Part shown: piece by piece, positions 3,517 to 30,300 of the stretch
Numbering within the stretch: position 1 is the first letter of the stretch
How the letters are laid out: each line of letters starts with the position of its first letter
Assembly (NCBI GenBank): GCA_937922045.1
Contig: CAKZXA010000086.1
Span: 1-35,703, forward strand
Length of the DNA stretch: 35,703 bases
Origin: an uncultured Acidimicrobiales bacterium
Lineage (GTDB): Bacteria > Actinomycetota > Acidimicrobiia > Acidimicrobiales > SZUA-35
Direction: 5' to 3'
Made by a program: the position numbers and the translations under genes
Notes under the pieces: model-generated
Told to the model about the DNA's origin: nothing
What the model saw: the letters and a program-made list of their open reading frames with translations, nothing else
The model's database searches: none

Positions 3517-4590
3517 CTAGCCCTTCACGGCCGCCCAGGCAGCATCGGTTGCAGCCTTCTGATCGGCAGGCAACGCCACGTAGCCGCTGTCGCCGAAGGT
3601 CTTGGTAACCGCTTCGTCGTAGGCGGCACCGAGGTAGTAGTCGACATAACCAGCTAATGCCGGGTTGCTCGCGACCTTGGCGTTGTTGACGTAAATGTAG
3701 AGACCGCGGCTCACAGGATACGATCCATCGGCAATGGTTTCGACCGTCGGGGCCACGCAGTCGCCGCCTGGCTCTTCGCTCACCTGAATCGATTTCACCC
3801 GGTCTTTGTTGGCTTCAGCGAAAGCAAAGCCGGCCCAGCCCAGGCTCGAGTCAGAGCCCAAGACTCCTTCGATAATGATGTTGTCATCGGCATTGCCGGA
3901 GAAGTCTTGACGAATGAGCTGAGCCCCTTCACCCTGCCGATCTTCGGCGATCCCCTCAAGCACGATCTCGATGAAGCTGTCGTAGGTGCCGGACTCGGTT
4001 CCAGGAGCGCTGATGTCGAGTGCCGCATCGGGCAGGTCAGTAGCTGAACCAAGCTCCGAAGCAATGGCCTGCGCATCGGCCCAGTTGGAGAAACCTTCGC
4101 TCTCGCCACCTAGCAAGCTGTAGAGATCAGCGAAGGAAAGACACTCGATGTCGTTGTTCTGGCTGCTCATGACGGCGATTCCGTCGAACGCCACCTTCAG
4201 CTCGGTGAACTCGACACCCGTTTCGGCGCAGTCGGCGATCTCCTTGTCTTTGATCTGGCGAGATGCATCGGCGATGTCGATATCGCCTTCACAGAATGAC
4301 TTGAAGCCATCACCTGTGCCGGGGCCATTGACGGTGATGCTTATGTCTGCACCGCAGGCGTCTTCGTAGAGTTCGGCTGCTCGGGAACTGATCGGCTCGA
4401 CAGTCGATGAGCCCGACACGTTGATCGTGCCTTCGGTGCAATCGCCAGCGACCATCGCCGCATCAGACGAAGTGTCGGAAGCGTCCGCTGTCTCAGCGGC
4501 ATCGAGAGACGAGTCCGATGTACAGGCGGTCGCGGCAAAGGCAAGCGTCAGCAGAAGGGCCAAGATCCTCAGGTAGGTCGACTTGTTCAA
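3517..4590 (-). CDS. pstS: Phosphate ABC transporter substrate-binding lipoprotein PstS
   Basis: PstS captures inorganic phosphate outside the membrane for the PstCAB importer. The TTG at 4590 is chosen because GAGGAGAGG sits just upstream. It yields a signal peptide (LRILALLLTLAFAATAC) with lipid-attachment Cys23, then a low-complexity Ala/Asp/Ser linker. Phosphate-contacting loops are visible: NVSGSSTVEPIS, the SRQIKDKE segment, and SAPGTESGTYDSF. An ATG at 4677 would add about 29 residues and spoil the signal peptide. Mature length is normal for the family. No pstC, pstA, pstB or phoU is adjacent: upstream is a divergent nuclease, downstream a terminator. The gene is therefore transcribed alone. 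A Pho-box-like repeat lies upstream. Confidence 0.92.
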   Translation of the reverse strand: MNKSTYLRILALLLTLAFAATACTSDSSLDAAETADASDTSSDAAMVAGDCTEGTINVSGSSTVEPISSRAAELYEDACGADISITVNGPGTGDGFKSFCEGDIDIADASRQIKDKEIADCAETGVEFTELKVAFDGIAVMSSQNNDIECLSFADLYSLLGGESEGFSNWADAQAIASELGSATDLPDAALDISAPGTESGTYDSFIEIVLEGIAEDRQGEGAQLIRQDFSGNADDNIIIEGVLGSDSSLGWAGFAFAEANKDRVKSIQVSEEPGGDCVAPTVETIADGSYPVSRGLYIYVNNAKVASNPALAGYVDYYLGAAYDEAVTKTFGDSGYVALPADQKAATDAAWAAVKG

Positions 4591-4697
4591 GGTTTCCTCT
4601 CCTCGTATCACTACGAAGCCCACGCAACTCGCGAGCAACACTGTGATACCGACGGTACGCAGAGCAGGTTTCTTCAACCCGGTCTAGAGGTGACATC

Positions 4698-4730
4698 CAG
4701 GTAAACAGCAGATCAACAGTCAGATCGTTC
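4698..4730 (-). promoter_or_regulatory. Pho-box-like direct repeat (PhoP-type operator)
   Basis: Read on the minus strand, CTGTTGATCTG and CTGTTTACCTG are two adjoining 11-nt units (4719-4709 and 4708-4698). Upstream is a weaker third unit, GAACGATCTGA (4730-4720). Adjoining 11-nt repeats with a GTTnAcC core are the organisation of actinobacterial PhoP (PHO box) sites. The site lies about 108 bp upstream of the pstS start and about 75 bp upstream of the nuclease start, so it could serve both. PhoP binding is inferred from organisation and context. Confidence 0.6.
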
Positions 4731-4792
4731 ACGTCGCACCGCTACCGTTAGCCTGGCACGACAACATCGCGGCAGAAGTCGCCGACAGGCCT

Positions 4793-4804
4793 GGGGAGCT
4801 CCCC
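4793..4804. promoter_or_regulatory. 12-bp palindrome GGGGAGCTCCCC abutting a start codon
   Basis: This perfect palindrome ends immediately before the nuclease ATG at 4805. Its left half (GGGGAG) is also the best Shine-Dalgarno candidate. It could be a protein-binding site or simply a ribosome-binding site by chance symmetry. TAGCCT at 4749-4754 is a possible -10 box for the same gene. Confidence 0.35.
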
Positions 4805-5344
4805 ATGGAAGATCGAGACGTGATGTTGCCAACGCCAACCGCTCTGCTCCAGGTCATCGGGGTCGCCATCGTCGTGCTTGTCACAGGCTGTCGGTCGAGC
4901 CCGCCGGCGGCCGAGGCTCAACCAACCATCGCCGATGTTATCGATGGAGATACGGTCGTTGTCGTACTGGCCGGACGACGAGAAACCGTCAGGCTGCTTG
5001 GGATAGACACCCCGGAGACGGTGCATCCAACGCTGCCCCAGCAGTGTTTCGGGGCTGAAGCTTCAGCCGCTCTCCACAACCTGCTACCGGCGGGCACTAC
5101 CGTCCGCCTTGAACGCGACGCCCAAGCCCGAGACCACTACGGACGACTCCTGCTCTACCTCTACCGCCACGACGACGACCTTTTCGTCAACGAGTGGCTG
5201 GTAGAACAAGGTCTCGCCGACACAAGCTTCTATGAGCCAAACACGGCCTTCGCCTCGACACTTCGGGAGGCCAGACGTCGGGCCAGAACCTCCGGCGCAG
5301 GCCTATGGGGATCGTGCGAAGGAGCCGACCAGCCTCTCAACTAG
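4805..5344 (+). CDS. Secreted thermonuclease (staphylococcal nuclease-like) lipoprotein
   Basis: This 179-aa protein has an N-terminal hydrophobic segment (LLQVIGVAIVVLVTGC) ending in a lipobox with Cys29, so it should be anchored on the outer face of the membrane. The SNase domain spans about 40-172 and keeps the catalytic set: D49 in DVIDGDTVVV, R62, D67 and E70 in RLLGIDTPE, and R113 in RDHYGRLLLYLY. The closing motif ARTSGAGLWG is also typical. Such enzymes cleave DNA and RNA in a calcium-dependent way. It is divergent from pstS across a Pho-box-like repeat, suggesting use in releasing phosphate from extracellular nucleic acid (inference). An alternative start is ATG 4823. Confidence 0.9.
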   Translation: MEDRDVMLPTPTALLQVIGVAIVVLVTGCRSSPPAAEAQPTIADVIDGDTVVVVLAGRRETVRLLGIDTPETVHPTLPQQCFGAEASAALHNLLPAGTTVRLERDAQARDHYGRLLLYLYRHDDDLFVNEWLVEQGLADTSFYEPNTAFASTLREARRRARTSGAGLWGSCEGADQPLN

Positions 5345-11151: not shown

Positions 11152-14100
11152 CTAGCGAAAATCCCGGCTCGATGGCAGCGACCCTGTGGGAGACAACCCT
11201 GCCTTCTGCGACCCAACCGGCAAGGGTTCCAATTTCTCAGCCACCAGGTTGACCACCGACTCTTGACGCTCAACCCGACCTCGTATGAGAAGGGCCGGAG
11301 CGTTACAGGCAGTGGTGCGATACCGGGCCCAGCAACCGACCGATACGACGACGTTGATCAAGCCGGTCTCGTCCTCCAGACCCATGAAGGTCACCCCCGA
11401 AGCGGTGGCCGGTCGTTGGCGATGGGTGACGATACCTGCCACTCGCACCTTGGCTCCATGGGGGGCCTGGGCGAGCTGGGCCGCAGTCAAAACTCCCTGG
11501 CTGTTCAATCCATCCCGCAAGAAGATCGTGGGGTGACCGTCGACAGCCACCCCGGTAGCCCACAGGTCAGCCAGAGCAAGCTCATGGTCGCTCATACCGG
11601 GCAGTTGAGGGGCGGTGGTGCCGGTGGCTGTTCCCACCAAGGTGTTGCGGCCAGCCTCCGCCACCGCTCCGGCTTCCCAAAGGGCTTGGCGGCGCGTGTC
11701 ATCGCCAGATGAAGCCTCGACCGTAGTTTTGAAGCAGGCGAAAGCACCGGCGGTAGCCATCGCTTCGAGCGCCTTACGGCCGGTGTCGGTCCGTCGAGCC
11801 AGCTCCTCGATCGAAACAAAAGGACCGTTGGCCAATCGATCGGCCTCGATCCGTTCGGCCATGTCGTCACCCACCGAGCGAATCGAGCGCAGGCCAAGGC
11901 GCACCCCCCAGCCATCGTCATAACGTTCGAAAGTAGGCACGATCGGGTCGGGCTCTAACGCCGAGGAAACCCTTTCAAGATTGGCGTAAGCCAACGAGGC
12001 GTTCACACACGGTGGCAACGACGGCACCCCATGGCGGCGTGCATCCTGCACGAGGGAGTGAGACGAATAGAACCCCATCGGCTGGGCCTTCAGCAAGGCA
12101 GCACAGAAGGCGGCCGGATAATGCAGCTTCAGCCACGATGAAGCGTAAACGAGGTAGGCGAAGCTGATCGAATGGCTCTCGGGAAATCCATAGTTGGCGA
12201 AGGCGGCCAGCTTGTTCCAAATCTGGGTGATCACATCGCCCTCGACCCCCTTGATCGCTGCCCCCTGTTCGAATCTGTAGCGCAATTGCTCCATACGTTC
12301 CCGTGAACGTTTGGCTCCCAGCGCCTGGCGAAGTTCGTCAGCATCACCTGCTGTGAAGTCGGCAACATCGATCGCGATCTGCATCAGTTGCTCTTGGAAG
12401 AGGGGTATGCCCAGCGTCTTTTCCAAGGCCCTCTCCAGCAGGGGGTGCAGATAGGTGACGGGCTCCTCTCCGTTGCGACGCCGGATGTAGGGATGCACCG
12501 ATCCCCCTTGGATAGGACCAGGACGGATAAGGGCCACCTCCACCACCAGGTCATAGAAGGTGCGGGGCTTGAGCCGGGGCAGGGTGCCCATCTGAGCCCG
12601 AGACTCCACCTGAAACACCCCGACCGAGTCGGCCCGGCACAACATGTCGTACACCGCCGGTTCCTGTTCCAGCGCGGCCAAGTCAACATCGGTGCCATGA
12701 TGATCAGCCACAAAATCGGTGGCGTAGTGGAGAGCCGACAGCATGCCAAGGCCCAGTAGGTCGAACTTGACCAGACCAGCCGCGGCGCAATCGTCTTTGT
12801 CCCACTGCAGAACGGTGCGCCCTTCCTTGCGAGCCCATTCCACCGGGCAGACCTCGATGACCGGCCGATCGCACATCACCATGCCACCCGAGTGGACCCC
12901 GAGATGTCGGGGTAGGGATTCGAACTGGGTTGCGAGCTCGATCACGTCAGCGGGAATTCCGTCGGTGGCCTCCACACTCGATCCCCAGCCGCTTATCCCT
13001 TTGGAGAAGGTGTCTTGCTGCCCGGGGGCGTAGCCCAAAGCCTTGGCCGCATCCCGAACCGCCGATCGGGGACGATACGAGATCACGTTGGCCACTTGGG
13101 CCGCATGGCGGCGCCCGTGCTTGTTGTAAACGTACTGGATGGCCTCCTCTCGCCGGTCGGACTCGATGTCGAGGTCGATGTCGGGTGGCCCGTCCCGGTC
13201 GGTGGAGAGGAAACGTTCGAACAAAAGGCCAAGACTTACCGCATCGGCCTTCGTGATGCCCAGCACGTAGCACACAGCCGAGTTGGCGGCCGACCCCCGC
13301 CCCTGGCACAGGATGTTGTTGCGGTTGCAGAAGTCGACGATGTCCCATACCACGAGGAAATAGCCGGGGAATCCAAGCTTGTCGATCAGGTCGAGCTCAG
13401 CGTCGAGCTGGCGCCAGGCACCTCGTATGGAGGGCTGCTGTCGTGGCCCATACCGGATCGTGCCTCCCTCCTCCACCAGGCGGCGCAGGTATCCCATCTC
13501 ATCCAATCCGTCAGGGCACGGGTACGGGGGCAACCGGGGGGCGACGAGAGACAGATCGAAGGCGCAGGCCAGGCCCAACTCGGCCGCCCTCTCCACCACC
13601 CCGGGGTAGCGGGTGAAGCGGCGGGCCTGCTCATCACCGGAGCGAAGATGGGCACTGGCCGAAACAGGAACCCAGCCTTCCATATCGTCGAGTGAGCGCC
13701 GAGCTCGCACCGCTGCCATGGCGGTAGCGAGACGACGGTCGGCCGGGGTGGCGTAATGCACATTGTTGGTGGCCACCGGTTCCACCCCGGCCGACAAGGC
13801 CAGTTCGACCAGAGCATCGTTGCGCACAGTGTCGAGCGGGGTGCCATGATCCCACAACTCGACAACAACGTTGCCCCGGCCGAACCGGTCGATCAGTTGA
13901 TGAAGGGCCCGGGCCGCCGCGGCCGGGCCCTTCAGTTCTAGCGCCTTGGGCACCGCTGCCTTCCGGCACCCGGTGAGCACCACGAGGTGGTCGTATTCAG
14001 CGGGTTTGACCCAGCGGTCGAGGTCGTCCATCGTCATGCGCGGTGCGCCCTTGTGCCCGGCCAGCTGGGATTCGCTGATGATCCGGGCGAGGGCGGCGTA

Positions 14101-14571
14101 GCCTTCTGGGTCACGGGCCAACACCAGCAGATGGCCTCCATCAGGGTCGGCTTGGCCGGCGCTGACGTCGAGCTTGTCGATCGTCAACTCGGCGCCGAAC
14201 ACCGTGGGCAGACCGACAGCTCTGGCCGCCTCGGCGAAACGGACTACGCCATAAAACCCGTCGTGGTCGGTGACCGCCAAGGCGGCTAGATCGAGCCGGG
14301 CCGCCTCCTCGGCTAAGGCCTCGGGCGACGAGGCCCCGTCGAGGAAACTGAAGCTGGTGTGGCAGTGCAGCTCGGCGTAGGGCACGGTCGAGGGACGGCG
14401 GACGATGGCGGGTGCATCATAGGGCTGACGATGATGCGACCAAGCAGGGCTATCGCCTCCGTTTGCGCCCGGCCCAAACGGAGCCGCGCTCGGAGGCTGC
14501 TTGGCTGACGGCTTATCGGAGAGCGTACGCTCGATCTGTCGCCAGGTGACGGGAGGGTTCTGCCAGCCCAT
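11152..14571 (-). CDS. dnaE2: Error-prone DNA polymerase III alpha subunit DnaE2
   Basis: 1139 aa, C-family polymerase used in SOS mutagenesis together with ImuA and ImuB. It begins with the DnaE2 hallmark MGWQNPPVTW. A PHP domain follows (about 64-270; ELHCHTSFSFLDGASSPEAL with H69/H71). The palm carries catalytic aspartates in GPPDIDLDIESDRREEAI (about 460), then FQVESRAQMGTLPRLKPRTF and VEVALIRPGPIQGG, helix-hairpin-helix segments, and a C-terminal OB domain (VRVAGIVTHRQRPAT). No beta-clamp or tau-binding extension of replicative DnaE is evident. An SOS box and -10 box sit directly upstream. imuA-imuB lie about 10 kb away under a matching promoter. Confidence 0.96.
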   Translation of the reverse strand: MGWQNPPVTWRQIERTLSDKPSAKQPPSAAPFGPGANGGDSPAWSHHRQPYDAPAIVRRPSTVPYAELHCHTSFSFLDGASSPEALAEEAARLDLAALAVTDHDGFYGVVRFAEAARAVGLPTVFGAELTIDKLDVSAGQADPDGGHLLVLARDPEGYAALARIISESQLAGHKGAPRMTMDDLDRWVKPAEYDHLVVLTGCRKAAVPKALELKGPAAAARALHQLIDRFGRGNVVVELWDHGTPLDTVRNDALVELALSAGVEPVATNNVHYATPADRRLATAMAAVRARRSLDDMEGWVPVSASAHLRSGDEQARRFTRYPGVVERAAELGLACAFDLSLVAPRLPPYPCPDGLDEMGYLRRLVEEGGTIRYGPRQQPSIRGAWRQLDAELDLIDKLGFPGYFLVVWDIVDFCNRNNILCQGRGSAANSAVCYVLGITKADAVSLGLLFERFLSTDRDGPPDIDLDIESDRREEAIQYVYNKHGRRHAAQVANVISYRPRSAVRDAAKALGYAPGQQDTFSKGISGWGSSVEATDGIPADVIELATQFESLPRHLGVHSGGMVMCDRPVIEVCPVEWARKEGRTVLQWDKDDCAAAGLVKFDLLGLGMLSALHYATDFVADHHGTDVDLAALEQEPAVYDMLCRADSVGVFQVESRAQMGTLPRLKPRTFYDLVVEVALIRPGPIQGGSVHPYIRRRNGEEPVTYLHPLLERALEKTLGIPLFQEQLMQIAIDVADFTAGDADELRQALGAKRSRERMEQLRYRFEQGAAIKGVEGDVITQIWNKLAAFANYGFPESHSISFAYLVYASSWLKLHYPAAFCAALLKAQPMGFYSSHSLVQDARRHGVPSLPPCVNASLAYANLERVSSALEPDPIVPTFERYDDGWGVRLGLRSIRSVGDDMAERIEADRLANGPFVSIEELARRTDTGRKALEAMATAGAFACFKTTVEASSGDDTRRQALWEAGAVAEAGRNTLVGTATGTTAPQLPGMSDHELALADLWATGVAVDGHPTIFLRDGLNSQGVLTAAQLAQAPHGAKVRVAGIVTHRQRPATASGVTFMGLEDETGLINVVVSVGCWARYRTTACNAPALLIRGRVERQESVVNLVAEKLEPLPVGSQKAGLSPTGSLPSSRDFR

Positions 14572-14577
14572 GTTGCC

Positions 14578-14599
14578 ACCTTACCGAACAAATGTTCGA
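14578..14599 (-). promoter_or_regulatory. LexA (SOS) box abutting the -10 box of dnaE2
   Basis: On the minus strand TCGAACATTTGTTCGG (14599-14584) matches the actinobacterial SOS box, with a perfect CGAAC-N4-GTTCG core. It is followed immediately by TAAGGT (14583-14578) and then 6 nt to the ATG at 14571. LexA bound here would cover the promoter; the transcript would be leaderless. Confidence 0.88.
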
Positions 14600-25068: not shown

Positions 25069-26631
25069 CTAGTCATAGCTTGCCTCGATAAACCAGGACT
25101 GGCGCTCGACCATAAGTAGATGGGCGGATCCATCACCGAGGCAAACCTGCATTCGAGCCCTTCGCGATCTGGTCAAAGGATCCCACCAGCGTTGCTCCGC
25201 TGGCCACGGTCCCGCCCATGTAGCAACCATCTGCGATGGTCGCCCCGCCATACACATCATGGCCGGGTCGCCGCTCAACAGGCCGCGGCCACCCACCACC
25301 ACCAGCTGGCCAGAACGGTCCCGGAGTTCGATCGGCTTTGGATCGGCATGCACTTTGGCCGGAGACGGGGCTGGCAGCTGGCCCGGCCATGGTTCGTTCA
25401 GCCAGCCTGCGGAGGCGGCCGGCCGGGGCTGGGTGAGATCGACGGCAGCCGCTGGCACCAGACGTATCCGCTCCCCCGGACCAATACCTCCCTTGAACTC
25501 AGGCACGGTCACCGAATCGGGGCCAAGCATGGTTTGGAGACGGGCCACAGCTCGGGTGACGGCTTCAGCTTGATCATTGGTGGCGCCCCAGAAAGCGAGC
25601 TGGTTGCCGGTGGCCGGTACAACTTCATCGGGGATGAGACTCAGGTGCACAATCCCTGACGTCGGCCGACTGTTCACACCCTGATGGAGCCAGCTATCGA
25701 GCTGCCAGCGAGCCCGATCGGCCACATCGGCCGCCGACAGCAAGCCCTGGTTGCGCCAGAGCCGAAGCGACCGCTCCCCTGCTTCGGTTTCGGCTTCAAT
25801 CGCCACCCGGGTGCAGGCCAGACCACGCGACTGGAGTCCAGCATGAAATTCCTCTGCCAACGCCTTCGCTGCGTAGGCACAGGTTTCGATGCGGTCTGCC
25901 GGTGGCTCGAAGGCCCACGAAACCGACAGATCGAAGGCCGGACGACGCAGGTCTGGCGGATGATCGTCTTCGCCTTTGGCCAGCCGATGTGCCAGCAACC
26001 CATCCCGACCAAATCGCCCGACCACATCGGTGCTCGATAAGGCAGCGAACCGACCAAGGGTTGTGATCCCCAATCGGGTCAGCACCTCGGTTAGTTCCGG
26101 ATCGTCAATGGCCGTGATCGGCAGATCGGCCAGGAAGGCAGCGCTTTGGCCCGGGGCCACAACCGTGATCGGCTCACCAGTTCGGGCCGCCAGGCGAGCG
26201 GTGAACACACCATCGGCGAGTGCGACCCTCAGCTCCCCTCGCCGAGCCAGAAGCGGCTGGACTTTCTCGTAAACCATCTCCGCTAGCGCACTATCTCCTC
26301 CGAAAAATCGTGAAGGACCACGAGTGGGAAAGCCGACCAGGCCCGGCCCTGTCACCTCTACCCGAGGGGCGAACTCATCGACCGCAGCCACCACCGGGTC
26401 GAAGAGGCGAGCCTCACGGTCGAGATCTCGACCGAGAAGTACCACCTCCGGGCAACGACCTTGAGCTTCCCGCCGGCGCTGTCCCAAGGCCACCCCTTCA
26501 GCCCGAGCGGCTGGGGTGGTGGCCACCACCCGGTTAACCTCCAGCACGAGAGCTGGCTCATCCATCGGCACCCCCCAAGACACCAACGGCCAATCCGGGC
26601 ACCACACCACAAGCATCCTTACGCCCGCCAT
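25069..26631 (-). CDS. imuB: ImuB, non-catalytic Y-family polymerase-like mutasome protein
   Basis: 520 aa. ImuB is the hub of the SOS mutasome, bridging DnaE2, ImuA and the beta-clamp. The Y-family fold is seen in LVVWCPDWPLVSWGVPMDEP, the small helical segment LTEVLTRLGITTLGRFAALS (about 188-205), and the little-finger region with WAFEPPADRIETCAYAAKAL. Where true Y-family polymerases have the catalytic D-x-D and SIDE motifs, this protein has CPDWP and VEVTGPGLVGFPT, so catalytic acids are lost as in other ImuB proteins. Start ATG 26631; M6 (26616) is an alternative. It follows imuA by 37 bp in the same transcript. Confidence 0.92.
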   Translation of the reverse strand: MAGVRMLVVWCPDWPLVSWGVPMDEPALVLEVNRVVATTPAARAEGVALGQRRREAQGRCPEVVLLGRDLDREARLFDPVVAAVDEFAPRVEVTGPGLVGFPTRGPSRFFGGDSALAEMVYEKVQPLLARRGELRVALADGVFTARLAARTGEPITVVAPGQSAAFLADLPITAIDDPELTEVLTRLGITTLGRFAALSSTDVVGRFGRDGLLAHRLAKGEDDHPPDLRRPAFDLSVSWAFEPPADRIETCAYAAKALAEEFHAGLQSRGLACTRVAIEAETEAGERSLRLWRNQGLLSAADVADRARWQLDSWLHQGVNSRPTSGIVHLSLIPDEVVPATGNQLAFWGATNDQAEAVTRAVARLQTMLGPDSVTVPEFKGGIGPGERIRLVPAAAVDLTQPRPAASAGWLNEPWPGQLPAPSPAKVHADPKPIELRDRSGQLVVVGGRGLLSGDPAMMCMAGRPSQMVATWAGPWPAEQRWWDPLTRSRRARMQVCLGDGSAHLLMVERQSWFIEASYD

Positions 26632-26650
26632 AATGCGCCGCTACCCCAGA

Positions 26651-26692
26651 GCCTTCAACATCCGGCCTTCAACATCCGGCCTTCAACATGTG
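26651..26692. repeat. Three tandem copies of a 14-bp repeat at the imuA-imuB junction
   Basis: GCCTTCAACATCCG (26651-26664), an identical copy (26665-26678) and GCCTTCAACATGTG (26679-26692). The array runs across the imuA stop codon into the 37-bp gap before imuB. Fourteen is not a multiple of three, so loss or gain of a unit would change the last residues of ImuA and the spacing to imuB. Confidence 0.85.
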
Positions 26693-27328
26693 GCCATCGA
26701 CATCCGGAAGAGAGACGACCCGTCGCCGAGCCATCGCCATCGAACGGCGACCCTGCGCTTCGACGGTGAGCTTCCGAGAACACAGATACCCCGAACCTTG
26801 CCCCAGCCCTTCCCACGTTCCCGCTTCCACCCACAACGACAGATCGAGTGGCACCGGCCAAGCGCGACCGCCGTCCAAATGAACGAGCACCGTCTGCTGC
26901 TCTCGGGCCCGAGCTATAAGCCGTCGAGCATCGCGCTGCCCGATCGGATGGCTCGGATTGATGCAAAGAACGCTCACCGCCTCCACCAGCACCGCCATCA
27001 CCGTGGCCCACTGCTGCGGCTCAGGGTGCTCGACCAGCAGAACACGATCCAGGGGTAAGCCGACCTCGCTGGCCGCTACCAACCCAAACTCTTCCGCCCC
27101 GACAAAGGCAGCCCAACGGTGGTCTTCCACCAGCGCCCCCGCCAACGCCGCCACCAGCGACCAGGAACCGACACCCGAGACACCCACCGACCAGCCGGTC
27201 GGCAGGCCTCCAAGGGGAAAGAGCTCAGCGAGGGCGACCGGCACCGGCAGCTGATGCTGCCCAGCCAAACGTACGGGCGCGATCCGCTCACGGATCTCTG
27301 GTAGCGTCATCGAGCCCGGCGACTCCAT
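26669..27328 (-). CDS. imuA: ImuA-like RecA-fold accessory protein of the SOS mutasome
   Basis: 219 aa, the size of actinobacterial ImuA'. The fold is RecA-like (PTGWSVGVSGVGSWSLVAAL where RecA has its P-loop, then AAFVGAEEFGLVAASEVGLP and RVLLVEHPEPQQWATVMAVL), but the Walker A GKT is missing, so ATP hydrolysis is doubtful. It recruits or regulates the ImuB-DnaE2 polymerase complex (family knowledge). The start at 27328 is set by the promoter: SOS box, one base, TAAAGT, 6 nt, ATG. Its C-terminus runs into the 14-bp tandem repeats. Confidence 0.82.
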   Translation of the reverse strand: MESPGSMTLPEIRERIAPVRLAGQHQLPVPVALAELFPLGGLPTGWSVGVSGVGSWSLVAALAGALVEDHRWAAFVGAEEFGLVAASEVGLPLDRVLLVEHPEPQQWATVMAVLVEAVSVLCINPSHPIGQRDARRLIARAREQQTVLVHLDGGRAWPVPLDLSLWVEAGTWEGLGQGSGYLCSRKLTVEAQGRRSMAMARRRVVSLPDVDGHMLKAGC

Positions 27329-27334
27329 CCGCTT

Positions 27335-27357
27335 ACTTTACCAGAACATTTGTTCGG
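27335..27357 (-). promoter_or_regulatory. LexA (SOS) box next to the -10 box of imuA-imuB
   Basis: On the minus strand CCGAACAAATGTTCTG (27357-27342) is an SOS box with one mismatch in the distal arm (CGAAC-N4-GTTCt). After one base comes TAAAGT (27340-27335), then 6 nt to the ATG at 27328. The geometry matches that at dnaE2. CGAACA at 27362-27367 forms an inverted repeat with TGTTCG at 27351-27356. Confidence 0.85.
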
Positions 27358-27375: not shown

Positions 27376-28089
27376 TCAGGTTGGAAACGCTACCTTAGGG
27401 AACTGCTGGAAACCCGGCCTGGCCAGGAGGTACCCCTGGAAGAGATCGATACCTTCGCTGCGGAACCACCAGAACTCTTCCTCGGTTTCGACACCCTCAG
27501 CAATAACTTCGATACCGAGATCTTCGCACGTCCGCTCAAGCCCTCGGACGATGGCTTGTCGAGGACCATGCTTCTCGATACCCCGCACCAGTTCTCGGTC
27601 CAGCTTGATAGCGTCCGGCTGAAACTCAGCGAGAAGATTGAGCCCGGCATATCCCGCGCCGAAGTCATCGATGGCATAGCGCACGCCGGTAGAGCGGTAC
27701 TCATTGGCCACCGCCACGAATCGAGGAAGGTTTCCGATAATCTCGCTCTCGGTAATCTCGATGGTGATAGCACTGGGTGGGATACCGATGGCGGCGGCGG
27801 TCTCAAGTGTGGATGCGAGTGCGCCTGAGGAGATCTCCAGTGCTCGCGGCATCAGATTGAGATTTACTCGCACCTCACCGTCTGCGCCGAGCTCACAAGC
27901 GAGCCGGAGAGCGGCCATTCTGAGCTCCTCGTCGAAGGCGTAGAGCTCCGATTGGCACACGCTGCTCAGGACGCTATATGCCGATTCACCATTCGGCCCA
28001 CGAACCAAAGCCTCTTGTGAGATGGTCTCGCCAAGGTCGACGTCGACGATGGGTTGGAAGGCGAACGTAAACTCAGGCAGCAGGGTCAT
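27376..28089 (-). CDS. Stand-alone EAL-domain c-di-GMP phosphodiesterase, catalytic residues intact
   Basis: 237 aa, almost nothing but an EAL domain. EAL enzymes hydrolyse c-di-GMP to pGpG with two metal ions. All expected residues are present: E26 in EALVR, N76/N78 in RVNLNLMP, E111 in ITIEITESE, D141-D142 in IDDFGAGYAGL, K162 in IKLDREL, E198 and E201 in IAEGVET, and the FQG near 217. It has no sensor or membrane segment. Its ATG overlaps the stop of the BLUF-EAL gene (ATGA, 28086-28089), so it is translationally coupled to it. Sequence around VRGIEKHGPRQAIVRG closely resembles the partner's EAL domain, suggesting duplication. It is probably controlled by that partner through EAL-EAL dimerisation (inference). 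Confidence 0.93.
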   Translation of the reverse strand: MTLLPEFTFAFQPIVDVDLGETISQEALVRGPNGESAYSVLSSVCQSELYAFDEELRMAALRLACELGADGEVRVNLNLMPRALEISSGALASTLETAAAIGIPPSAITIEITESEIIGNLPRFVAVANEYRSTGVRYAIDDFGAGYAGLNLLAEFQPDAIKLDRELVRGIEKHGPRQAIVRGLERTCEDLGIEVIAEGVETEEEFWWFRSEGIDLFQGYLLARPGFQQFPKVAFPT

Positions 28090-29330
28090 TGCAGCACATC
28101 GCTCGGCAACATCATCTCGGTTGAGAGCTGTTCGAAAGCGGGTCCCGCAATAAGGTCACCCTGGAAAAGTTCGACGCCTTCGCTGTGGAACCACTGGAGC
28201 TCAGCGCTGGTTTCCAGATGCTTGACGATCACATCGATGCCTAGGTCGTCACACGTCTGGATCATTCCACGCACCATTGCCTGGCGCGCTCCGTGCGACT
28301 CAATACCTCGGACCAGGTTCTTGCTCAACGCGATGCTGTCGGGCTGGAAGCTGTCTATGAGACCAAGCCCAAACCGGCTTCCCCCGGAGCCGTTGATCGA
28401 AAAACGCAGTCCAGCCCCACGTCGCTCCTGAATCAGTGCGCTGAACCAGGAAGGGTTGCTCCCGATGTCATGCTGCTCAACCTCAAAGGTGAGCTGGGAC
28501 GGGCTGACCGAAGATCTACTGGCCATCTGGAGTGCCGAATCGATTATGCGGGGTATCTCTTCGATCTTGGGAACGGGGTAGCTGAGCGTTAGACCGCCGG
28601 TCAACCCAAGCCGACCAGCCATACCAATGGCCATCTCGATCGACTGGATCTGCATCCGGACCCGGCCTTCCTCGGTGGCATAGCGAGAGAGAACCTCACG
28701 GGGGTCTTCACCTTCCTTGCTCCGCACGATGGCCTGATAGCCGGTGATCGTGCGATTGGAGAGATCAACCAGCGGCTGGAAGGCAAACGAAATTTCCGGC
28801 CGTTCGTCTTCATCCTGAACGACGGGTGCCTCCGATGGGGAACTGGCAGACGTCGCCTTGGCTGCCACAGAGGCAACCTCAGCCGCTTGCTGTCCGGCTA
28901 TTTGAGAACGCCACCGTCCCGCTCTGAACGCCTTCAGAAGCTTCTTGGTCCGACCTGAATCCAGATCGGTGAAGCAGCTCTCCATCTCGAAGAAGTCGTT
29001 CAATCCGACGATCGAGTCCAGGTCATCAGCACTGATGTCGGCAAGACCCATACTCCACTCCCCGAAGTCGCGTTTGGCGATCGGCTCATGAATGATCGTG
29101 ACCACACCACCATGACGTGGATCACCGGAGATAACGTCGAACAGCTCCTCGACCGCATGAGGCTCACCCTCCAACACTTGCAAGAAGCTTCCCTCAACGT
29201 AGAGAAGCATCCCGGTGATGCCAAGGGAGCTGTTCTTCGCTCGGGCCCGGTCTAGCAAATCGACCAGTTCAGCTCGGGGTAGCGGCTTCGTGGCCGCACT
29301 GCTGTAGATGAGATGCACGAGCGGTGACAT
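28086..29330 (-). CDS. BLUF blue-light photoreceptor with C-terminal degenerate EAL domain
   Basis: 414 aa. The BLUF domain (about 3-97) binds FAD and senses blue light; its photocycle residues are all present: Y9 (LIYSS), N33 (AKNSSLGITG), Q51 (GSFLQVLEG), W92 and M94 (EWSMG). A helical cap and a low-complexity Ala/Ser linker (about 100-178) lead to an EAL-type domain (179-400) that has lost catalysis: Q199 for Glu in YQAIVR, no Asn in LTLSYPVP, N313-G314 for the Asp pair, A334 for Lys in DSIALSK, K370 for Glu in IVKHLE. Only E283 and FQG remain. GAGGTAATCC is the ribosome-binding site. The next gene in the operon is an intact EAL enzyme. Confidence 0.93.
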   Translation of the reverse strand: MSPLVHLIYSSAATKPLPRAELVDLLDRARAKNSSLGITGMLLYVEGSFLQVLEGEPHAVEELFDVISGDPRHGGVVTIIHEPIAKRDFGEWSMGLADISADDLDSIVGLNDFFEMESCFTDLDSGRTKKLLKAFRAGRWRSQIAGQQAAEVASVAAKATSASSPSEAPVVQDEDERPEISFAFQPLVDLSNRTITGYQAIVRSKEGEDPREVLSRYATEEGRVRMQIQSIEMAIGMAGRLGLTGGLTLSYPVPKIEEIPRIIDSALQMASRSSVSPSQLTFEVEQHDIGSNPSWFSALIQERRGAGLRFSINGSGGSRFGLGLIDSFQPDSIALSKNLVRGIESHGARQAMVRGMIQTCDDLGIDVIVKHLETSAELQWFHSEGVELFQGDLIAGPAFEQLSTEMMLPSDVLQ

Positions 29331-29438: not shown

Positions 29439-30209
29439 TCAAAACTTGCCTGTGTTCACCCAGGTCTCTTTGGGGGAAATCGTCTCGGTTACGTCCCAAT
29501 GCTCAACAATGCGGTCGTCGTCCAGGCGGTACAGATCGATCACCGCCAGCCTCTCGGCCTTCGATTCAACCTCAGCCAAGGTGGCCACAAAGTCGCCGCA
29601 ACCGACCACAAGGTGCAGTTCGACACAGCGCAACGCAGACTCGATGGCGAAGGCCCGAAAAGCGGCCCCTCCGTCGATGAGATCGGGATTGTGTTGGACA
29701 CAATCCTCGGCGACGAATTGGGGGATCAGATCGTAGTTCGCCGGGGCGAGAACCTCGTCCACATAGCGTCGCACAAACTGCTTGTTCGCATCGGTGCGAT
29801 CAAGGTACCGGGGTTCGGTTGGACCGTCGAGCTGGGTCCTACCGCTCGCGGTCGATGTCCGTACCTCTTCGATAATGTCCCAATGCTCGATCAGTTTGGC
29901 CTCGTCGTCGGTGTCGAAGATGTCGGCGGTGACGTACTGGAACTCACCGTGGTTCAACCGTTGAAGCACATGGAGAAAGACGTAGCGACCGTCCTGGAAC
30001 GCTCGGACAACCTGGATGTCTCGGACCGGATTGCGTTCAACGAACCCGGCGAAGAATTCGATGAAGCCTTCCCTACCATCTCGCACCGGCGTTGAATGCT
30101 GCGTGTAACGATCACCCGAGTAGGTGTTTATAGCCGAAACAAAGTCACCATCACGGATGGCCTGAAGATACAAACCCTTCGCGTTCTCCAGAGCCTGTTC
30201 GATCGTCAT
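29439..30209 (-). CDS. Protein with two tandem SnoaL/NTF2-like domains
   Basis: About 256 aa from ATG 30209. Each half has the NTF2-like alpha+beta cone pattern ending in the same signature: HWDIIEEV in the first domain (about 108-115) and HWDVTETI near the C-terminus. DRYTQHSTPVRDGREGFIEF and EDCVQHNPDLIDGGAAFRAF are matching segments from the two halves. Single-domain members are often hydrolases, isomerases or ligand binders; no catalytic assignment is possible. The frame is open further upstream (to 30290) but without conserved content. It lies upstream of the BLUF operon on the same strand, 108 bp away, so co-transcription is possible but not shown. Confidence 0.75.
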   Translation of the reverse strand: MTIEQALENAKGLYLQAIRDGDFVSAINTYSGDRYTQHSTPVRDGREGFIEFFAGFVERNPVRDIQVVRAFQDGRYVFLHVLQRLNHGEFQYVTADIFDTDDEAKLIEHWDIIEEVRTSTASGRTQLDGPTEPRYLDRTDANKQFVRRYVDEVLAPANYDLIPQFVAEDCVQHNPDLIDGGAAFRAFAIESALRCVELHLVVGCGDFVATLAEVESKAERLAVIDLYRLDDDRIVEHWDVTETISPKETWVNTGKF

Positions 30210-30300
30210 AGGTGGCTCAGCGTAACCTACGCTCTTGCTCAAAACCGGACGAGACCGCGCCTTTCGGCACGGCCCCGTCGGATCGAACATTTACCCTGAG

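Follow-up and report, generated by a model that had tools for sequence, protein, structure and literature searches.

We describe here two overlapping genes of an uncultured Acidimicrobiales bacterium, one encoding a BLUF photoreceptor with a degenerate EAL domain (B) and the other a stand-alone EAL protein (E). We consider it fairly probable that B and E are unequal halves of one blue-light-controlled c-di-GMP phosphodiesterase, paired through the EAL-EAL interface. The domains, the dead residues of one EAL and the live residues of the other, the conserved pairing and a dimerization helix frozen in both partners are all features of the sequences themselves. Furthermore, light probably controls the partner enzyme E through B-E pairing, because the dead and the intact EAL are kept together in related bacteria. 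The genes lie in a stretch of 35,703 nucleotides, which we call the window.

Structure of the gene pair

Reading of the open reading frames in the window placed the BLUF-EAL gene B and the EAL-only gene E on the minus strand with a 4-nt ATGA overlap (Table 1), as the initial annotation had reported. The Pfam search found BLUF and EAL in a single chain in B, as in proteins of the BlrP1 type. In addition, the BLUF photocycle residues that had been listed as kept in B are present and are invariant in the alignment of four B proteins.

Table 1. Coordinates of the B-E gene pair and its parts in the window
Feature	Position	Strand	Basis
Gene B, BLUF photoreceptor with degenerate EAL, 414 aa	28086..29330	-	ORF, Pfam
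BLUF domain, residues 4-95, with Y9, N33, Q51, W92 and M94	29046..29321	-	Pfam (6.2e-29), alignment
BLUF C-terminal capping-helix region, residues 98-141 (limits chosen by us), 57% between B clades	28908..29039	-	
Degenerate EAL of B, about residues 176-397, 7/10 catalytic/ligand positions lost	28140..28802	-	Pfam (7e-29)
Dimerization helix in B (BlrP1 327-354), the best-conserved segment of its dead EAL	28236..28319	-	Name from PMC3989770, limits chosen by us
Compound-helix segment of the dead EAL (BlrP1 307-316)	28350..28379	-	Name from PMC3989770
ATGA, stop of B and start of E	28086..28089	-	
Gene E, stand-alone EAL, 237 aa, all ten residues present	27376..28089	-	Pfam EAL, residues 6-225 (1.8e-48)
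Dimerization helix of the live EAL (BlrP1 327-354)	27511..27594	-	
Compound-helix segment of the live EAL (BlrP1 307-316)	27625..27654	-	

The closest solved sequence relative of B was BlrP1 (2e-46, residues 4-400), and those of E were 6ifq (6.1e-54; a standalone EAL of Vibrio cholerae, judging by its title) and then BlrP1 (1.7e-50). The predicted structure of E, of middling confidence (mean pLDDT 64.6), matched EAL structures, for instance FimX (Z 16.8, rmsd 3.5, 201 aligned) and BlrP1 (Z 15.8, rmsd 3.7, 201 aligned). Meanwhile, B was predicted from an alignment of the two window proteins alone with a mean pLDDT of 41.9, and we draw no conclusion from that model. The host genome has 1 BLUF place, 20 EAL places (the pair included) and 25 GGDEF places. 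Because of the EAL and GGDEF places, c-di-GMP is very probably both made and broken in the host.

Several other genes lie near the pair. A protein with SnoaL-like domains is encoded at 29439-30290 on the same strand, 108 bp upstream of B. The region is flanked by components of an SOS mutagenesis system (window 11152-14598 and 25069-27356), namely an error-prone polymerase of the dnaE2 type and imuA', after which comes a Y-family (imuB-like) gene. An identical LexA-like box, CGAACAAATGTTC, stands upstream of dnaE2 (14585-14597) and upstream of imuA' (27344-27356). The B-E pair sits directly upstream of imuA', and the other pair-bearing genomes are flanked differently where scanned.

Distribution of the pair

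B was searched in three overlapping sets, namely 198 relatives, 397 genomes of the order and 396 genomes of the phylum. It was found in nine genomes (the window's own, G035, G037, G142, G173, G179, G250, G269 and G413), which represent three families (f1, f17 and f27) of one order. Among the 396 genomes of the phylum, a match covering BLUF and EAL jointly at 1e-30 came solely from the window's own genome. Furthermore, 5 of 246 genomes sampled from the phylum, counting that of the window, had BLUF, which agrees with the earlier statement that BLUF proteins are uncommon in actinobacteria.

The initial annotation had proposed a search of genomes for the same adjoining pair, and this search found B next to E in seven of the nine B genomes. 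The 4-nt overlap is present in six of them (own, G035, G142, G173, G250 and G269), and in G179 there are 7 nt between the stop of B and the ATG of E. Most B genomes are drafts of many contigs. B of G179 spans two contig ends with 141 identical bases in common, its pseudo-EAL and E being on one contig; in G037, B and E are each cut, at the ends of different contigs; and in G413, where B is cut by a contig end, E was not found. In the latter two genomes, the place where B and E would join is thus masked by contig ends. No stop was found within B across the nine genomes.

The flanks differ among the neighbours scanned, which come from the window and six other loci. They are imuA' and the SnoaL-like gene in the window, an iron-sulfur protein and a VCA0040-like protein in G035, DUF808 in G142, TetR and SDR in G250, SDR and a transglycosylase in G269, ketopantoate hydroxymethyltransferase in G179 and a poly(A) polymerase type in G413. 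The last two genomes, of one genus, seem to have a common upstream gene, judged from its listed start. By our own arithmetic, the chance of a same-strand EAL within 1 kb downstream is about 0.2% (about 20 EAL places in 4.88 Mb). By its distribution among these sequences, the pair is co-inherited and not a one-off.

Beyond Actinomycetota, the phyla were sampled solely through the genome-contig, viral and plasmid scans and the loci opened from them. The single-protein scan of genome contigs gave one weak Chloroflexota EAL and nothing else, and the viral scan gave no relative. The plasmid collection gave 367 records, in 135 of which a single place spanned 80% or more of B (30 listed), and 173 records at a stricter limit (45 listed). 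The annotated BLUF-EAL loci of K. pneumoniae, Erwinia, Duffyella, Rahnella, Cronobacter and E. coli had no directly adjoining EAL gene in their tables, which are incomplete for plasmids; the Variovorax plasmid record is without annotation. In addition, the short BLUF proteins of G001, G011, G013, G040 and G169 had no EAL place nearby among the EAL places listed. One of these, in G013 (L027 / L059, contig C2, about 215365-215787), is a BLUF-only frame of 181 aa that matches the BLUF and capping helices of B (1.1e-27). It is of the same family and likewise has no close EAL among the places listed.

Active sites of the two EAL domains

Ten positions were scored in BlrP1 numbering (E188, N239, E272, E275, D302, D303, K323, E359, E362 and Q379). 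We take E188, E272, E275, E359 and E362 to be catalytic or ligand positions. The roles of N239, Q379, D302, D303 and K323 are given in PMC3989770. Window E is canonical at 10/10 positions, whereas window B reads, in order, Q, S, E, Q, N, G, A, K, E and Q. With its EAL profile and the full catalytic and ligand set, E has the sequence expected of an EAL c-di-GMP phosphodiesterase, and its completeness had been recognized in the initial annotation. When B and E were aligned with 14 further EAL domains from the host genome, Q199, N313-G314, A334 and K370 of B were seen to replace a near-invariant E, DD, K and E. These losses had been correctly identified before, and two further ones had been missed, namely S250 at BlrP1 N239 and Q286 at BlrP1 E275.

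Seven genomes have both EALs fully readable, and the residue table keeps B of G413 and E of G037 as partial rows. The partner E proteins had 10/10 residues in all seven genomes, and the partial eighth E kept 6/6 visible residues. In all seven B proteins, Q or H stands in place of E275, A or S in place of K323 and K, G or S in place of E359, and D302, D303 or both are gone. In these alignments, the dead/live split between B and E is conserved without exception among the fully readable rows. As for the single-chain homologues, BlrP1 and those of Erwinia, Duffyella and Variovorax had 10/10 residues, and E. coli BluF and those of Cronobacter and Rahnella were partly degenerate at the ten positions.

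A BLUF-EAL frame on the Variovorax plasmid (L118, around 4001-5158) is seemingly without the first BLUF strand and the photocycle Tyr, and its EAL has 10/10 residues. We read this frame as a frameshift or a light-blind variant.

Conservation of the dimerization helix

The dimerization helix was taken as BlrP1 327-354 (28 residues, limits set by us), and the EAL domain was divided into ten segments. In both B and E, the helix carries the stretch RQA(I/M)VRG. Between the B clades, this helix was 68% identical, and five of the ten EAL segments were 16-29% and four 38-51% identical. Between B and E of the same genome, it was 66% identical, with the nine other segments at 22-56%. Between the E clades, identity was 70% in the helix and up to 80-83% in other segments. 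Meanwhile, the helix was 43% identical among 11 standalone relatives, under their own window median of 53%.

When identity was scored in 28-residue windows, the best value of B versus B was 0.74 (median 0.31; top five starting at 331-336), and that of B versus its own E was 0.69 (median 0.32; top five starting at 328-336). Random sets of 28 columns reached the observed value in 0/20,000 cases for B and its own E, 0/20,000 for B-B and 109/20,000 for E-E. Circular shifts, which keep the correlation between neighbours, reached it in 10/217, 13/217 and 26/217 cases, respectively; for the helix, this control is weaker than that of random columns. Gene conversion was considered as a source of the common helix and rejected. 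Third codon positions agree in 67/144 cases within own pairs and in 391/850 across genomes, so homogenization of the DNA is not the cause of the likeness.

The compound helix of B was only 38% identical between clades, and that of E is canonical. With respect to a dimer of the BlrP1 type, the dimerization helix is thus strongly conserved and the compound helix less so, as judged from sequence. In the remainder of B (G179 excluded from the BLUF segment table and Variovorax from the full-length alignment), identity between clades was 52% in the BLUF core, 57% in the capping helices and 14% in the linker; among three active single-chain homologues, the capping helices were 29% identical.

Some positions of the interface also differ between the partners. 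Helix position 347 is Gln in 7/7 B and Arg in 6/7 E. Position 308 of the compound helix is Arg in 4/7 B and Tyr or Phe in 7/7 E. In BlrP1, the two Tyr308 residues come together in the middle of the compound helix (PMC3989770), and because of this we would guess that Arg308 may disfavour B-B pairs in that B clade. The conservation of the helix in a dead and a live EAL fits a heterodimer. However, a helix frozen in both proteins could equally serve two homodimers or a common third partner.

The standalone EAL relatives L124, L125, L127, L128, L129, L088, L089 and L064 have a Cys pair (CxxC, in several GCxxC) shortly before the EAL domain. The E proteins of the pair are without this N-terminal CxxC.

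Phylogeny and origin of the pair

The EAL tree included 47 domains. Three fragments of the own genome (L017, L019 and L020), the partial B of G413, B and E of G037 and the BLUF piece of G179 were dropped, and the tree without helix columns likewise leaves out the three own-genome fragments. B and E each fall into two identical sets, one of own, G035, G250 and G269 and the other of G142, G173 and G179. This split cuts across families, because members of f27 occur in both sets, and it would be as expected if the two genes travel together. In addition, the pairwise distances of B and E were correlated (r = 0.94, 21 genome pairs, which are not independent), and the EAL of B evolves about 1.6x faster than E.

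B formed one clade with support 82/94, and E was not one clade in the best tree. Without the columns of the dimerization helix, the bootstrap trees recovered B as a single clade in 12% of cases and E in 20%. Thus, the case for a single origin of B draws in part on the helix. The 11 standalone EALs formed their own clade, which excludes E. In the BLUF-domain tree, the B rows were joined by short branches, and long-branched short BLUF proteins attach among them.

The initial annotation had regarded long similar stretches of the two EALs as expected after duplication, and had suggested a tree of both with single-chain BLUF-EAL proteins. The stretches are real and are concentrated in the dimerization helix, but B and E are not sisters in the tree, so a recent tandem duplication was not supported. 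The AU tests rejected none of the groupings, namely a clade of B and E (p 0.354), a clade of E (0.337), all BLUF-linked EALs together (0.252) and E with Variovorax (0.22). The EAL trees, as built from these sequences, neither prove nor reject a duplication origin, and the similar stretches are not by themselves a sign of recent duplication.

Comparison with known BLUF and EAL systems

BlrP1 of Klebsiella pneumoniae (a BLUF-EAL phosphodiesterase; PDB 3gfx and others) has the same domain order as B, and its EAL interface elements can be aligned. However, BlrP1 has the sensor and the active EAL in one chain and forms a homodimer, whereas in the pair the chain with the sensor is catalytically dead and a second gene supplies the active EAL. 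The pair is therefore not of the BlrP1 type, because its BLUF-linked EAL is dead.

In Rhodopseudomonas palustris, papA presumably adjoins papB. These genes encode a BLUF protein and a solo EAL enzyme, which form a heteromeric light-controlled complex with the light signal passing between chains (PMC8846402). A two-gene arrangement of BLUF and solo EAL had thus been described already, and the opposite statement of the initial annotation does not hold. E is likewise a separate solo EAL enzyme beside a BLUF protein. However, PapB is described as having no other identifiable domain, whereas B has in addition an EAL that is degenerate but conserved in its dimerization helix; because of this EAL, B is not of the PapB type. 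A pair of BLUF-pseudoEAL and solo EAL was found nowhere in the literature listings and passages covered, which were thin on subscription journals (PMC3989770, PMC5635695, PMC6848086, PMC3509220, PMC8846402, PMC4844311, PMC5301497, PMC2654016).

E is a short solo EAL like RimA (NCBIfam NF052265), which is its best NCBIfam model (5.8e-67), but at the model cut-off of 430 bits both E (225.5) and B (131) fall below; RimA is absent from the trees. E also differs from the 11 standalone EALs in standing outside their clade, its best solved relative being the protein of Vibrio cholerae. BluF (YcgF) of Escherichia coli resembles B in joining BLUF to a degenerate EAL. However, BluF acts on the MerR-like BluR, and it has lost three of the ten positions (D303, E359 and E362), whereas B has lost seven. 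Next to BluF is bluR, and in the stretch read no EAL gene is closer than pdeG, at a distance of five genes, whereas B adjoins E directly. By the features compared, the B-E pair resembles BlrP1 and PapB-PapA and is a member of neither.

Proposed mechanism and alternative explanations

We infer that B and E form a physical heterodimer that would signal in trans and be activated by light. The two products of the overlapping genes would pair by the classic EAL-EAL interface of compound and dimerization helices. In this complex, B would provide the BLUF sensor and a catalytically dead EAL as a dimerization scaffold, and E would provide the sole active site. Light would alter BLUF, and the capping helices would act on the common interface, which would set the metal-binding loop of E. 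The light signal of BlrP1 is described as travelling from the BLUF capping helices by way of the interface to the opposing monomer, where it reaches the EAL (PMC8846402). EAL activity is controlled by way of the dimer interface (PMC3989770, PMC5301497). If EAL activity is tied to dimerization and the signal takes a route like that of BlrP1, BLUF needs merely a scaffold EAL to reach the active site of its partner. B fits the sensor half, since its sensor, capping helices and dimerization helix are conserved and its active site is gone, and E fits the other half. Light would most likely raise c-di-GMP hydrolysis, and higher phosphodiesterase activity in light would be expected by analogy with BlrP1 and PapB-PapA. 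More strictly, B and E might be an obligate heterodimer of photoreceptor-pseudoenzyme and enzyme, one half without an active site and the other without a sensor, to which we give somewhat less than an even chance. In that case, light signalling would run across the EAL-EAL interface alone, because sensor and active site are in separate halves.

Several other explanations were weighed. B might bind E mainly through BLUF and the capping helices, with the pseudo-EAL as a relic or minor brace and an E-E homodimer in a larger complex. PapB, which has only BLUF, uses its C-terminal helices to control the solo EAL PapA, with which it forms a heterotetramer (PMC8846402); the capping helices of B are well conserved, and E keeps a canonical compound helix and is probably able to homodimerize. 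Nevertheless, a relic EAL would hardly hold one helix at 68% with the remainder at 16-51%, and we regard this arrangement as unlikely. It is also rather improbable that B works under blue light as an anti-repressor, with a transcription factor or some other protein as its target, while E is a separate phosphodiesterase of the same pathway and makes no contact with B. E. coli BluF does have such a role, since it antagonizes BluR and has no phosphodiesterase activity (PMC3509220). However, the Pfam scan found no MerR-type family among 5 neighbours in the window and 10 flank proteins of six other loci, so the pair is not a BluF-BluR system by its scanned neighbours. Moreover, the constant neighbour of B is E, and one frozen helix is common to both.

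The dead EAL of B might instead be a c-di-GMP receptor of the LapD/FimX kind that feeds the level of the messenger back to E, as inactive EALs are able to bind c-di-GMP (PMC3989770, PMC5301497). Q379 is kept in 5/7 B proteins, but most B proteins have lost the other contacts to the substrate (N239 remains in 1/7, D215 in 2/7 and R192 in 1/7), which makes a receptor very unlikely. Even harder to accept is that B is a decaying gene whose place beside E reflects chance or mere co-transcription. The faster evolution of its EAL would suit decay, but the BLUF core is held at 52% and the dimerization helix at 68-70% between clades, B has no internal stop in nine genomes, and the pairing persists where the flanks differ. 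Thus, we continue to favour two halves of one enzyme that meet at the EAL-EAL interface.

Implications

Compared with PapB-PapA, the difference here is a photoreceptor with an inactive EAL of its own; the conservation of the dimerization helix in both B and E is a new observation. The symmetry of the BlrP1 homodimer makes it difficult to know if BLUF acts on its own or on the neighbour's EAL, and if the enzyme requires both active sites. If true, a natural division into one protein that only senses and one that only cuts would separate these two questions. If the obligate heterodimer is true, nature would have demonstrated that a BLUF can signal to an EAL in trans and that a dimer needs no more than one active site. 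In addition, the B-E pair could serve as a two-gene optogenetic c-di-GMP switch. Furthermore, the pair would plainly illustrate how, in bacterial second-messenger signalling, an enzyme domain can lose its activity and yet be kept for the dimer interface that it offers.
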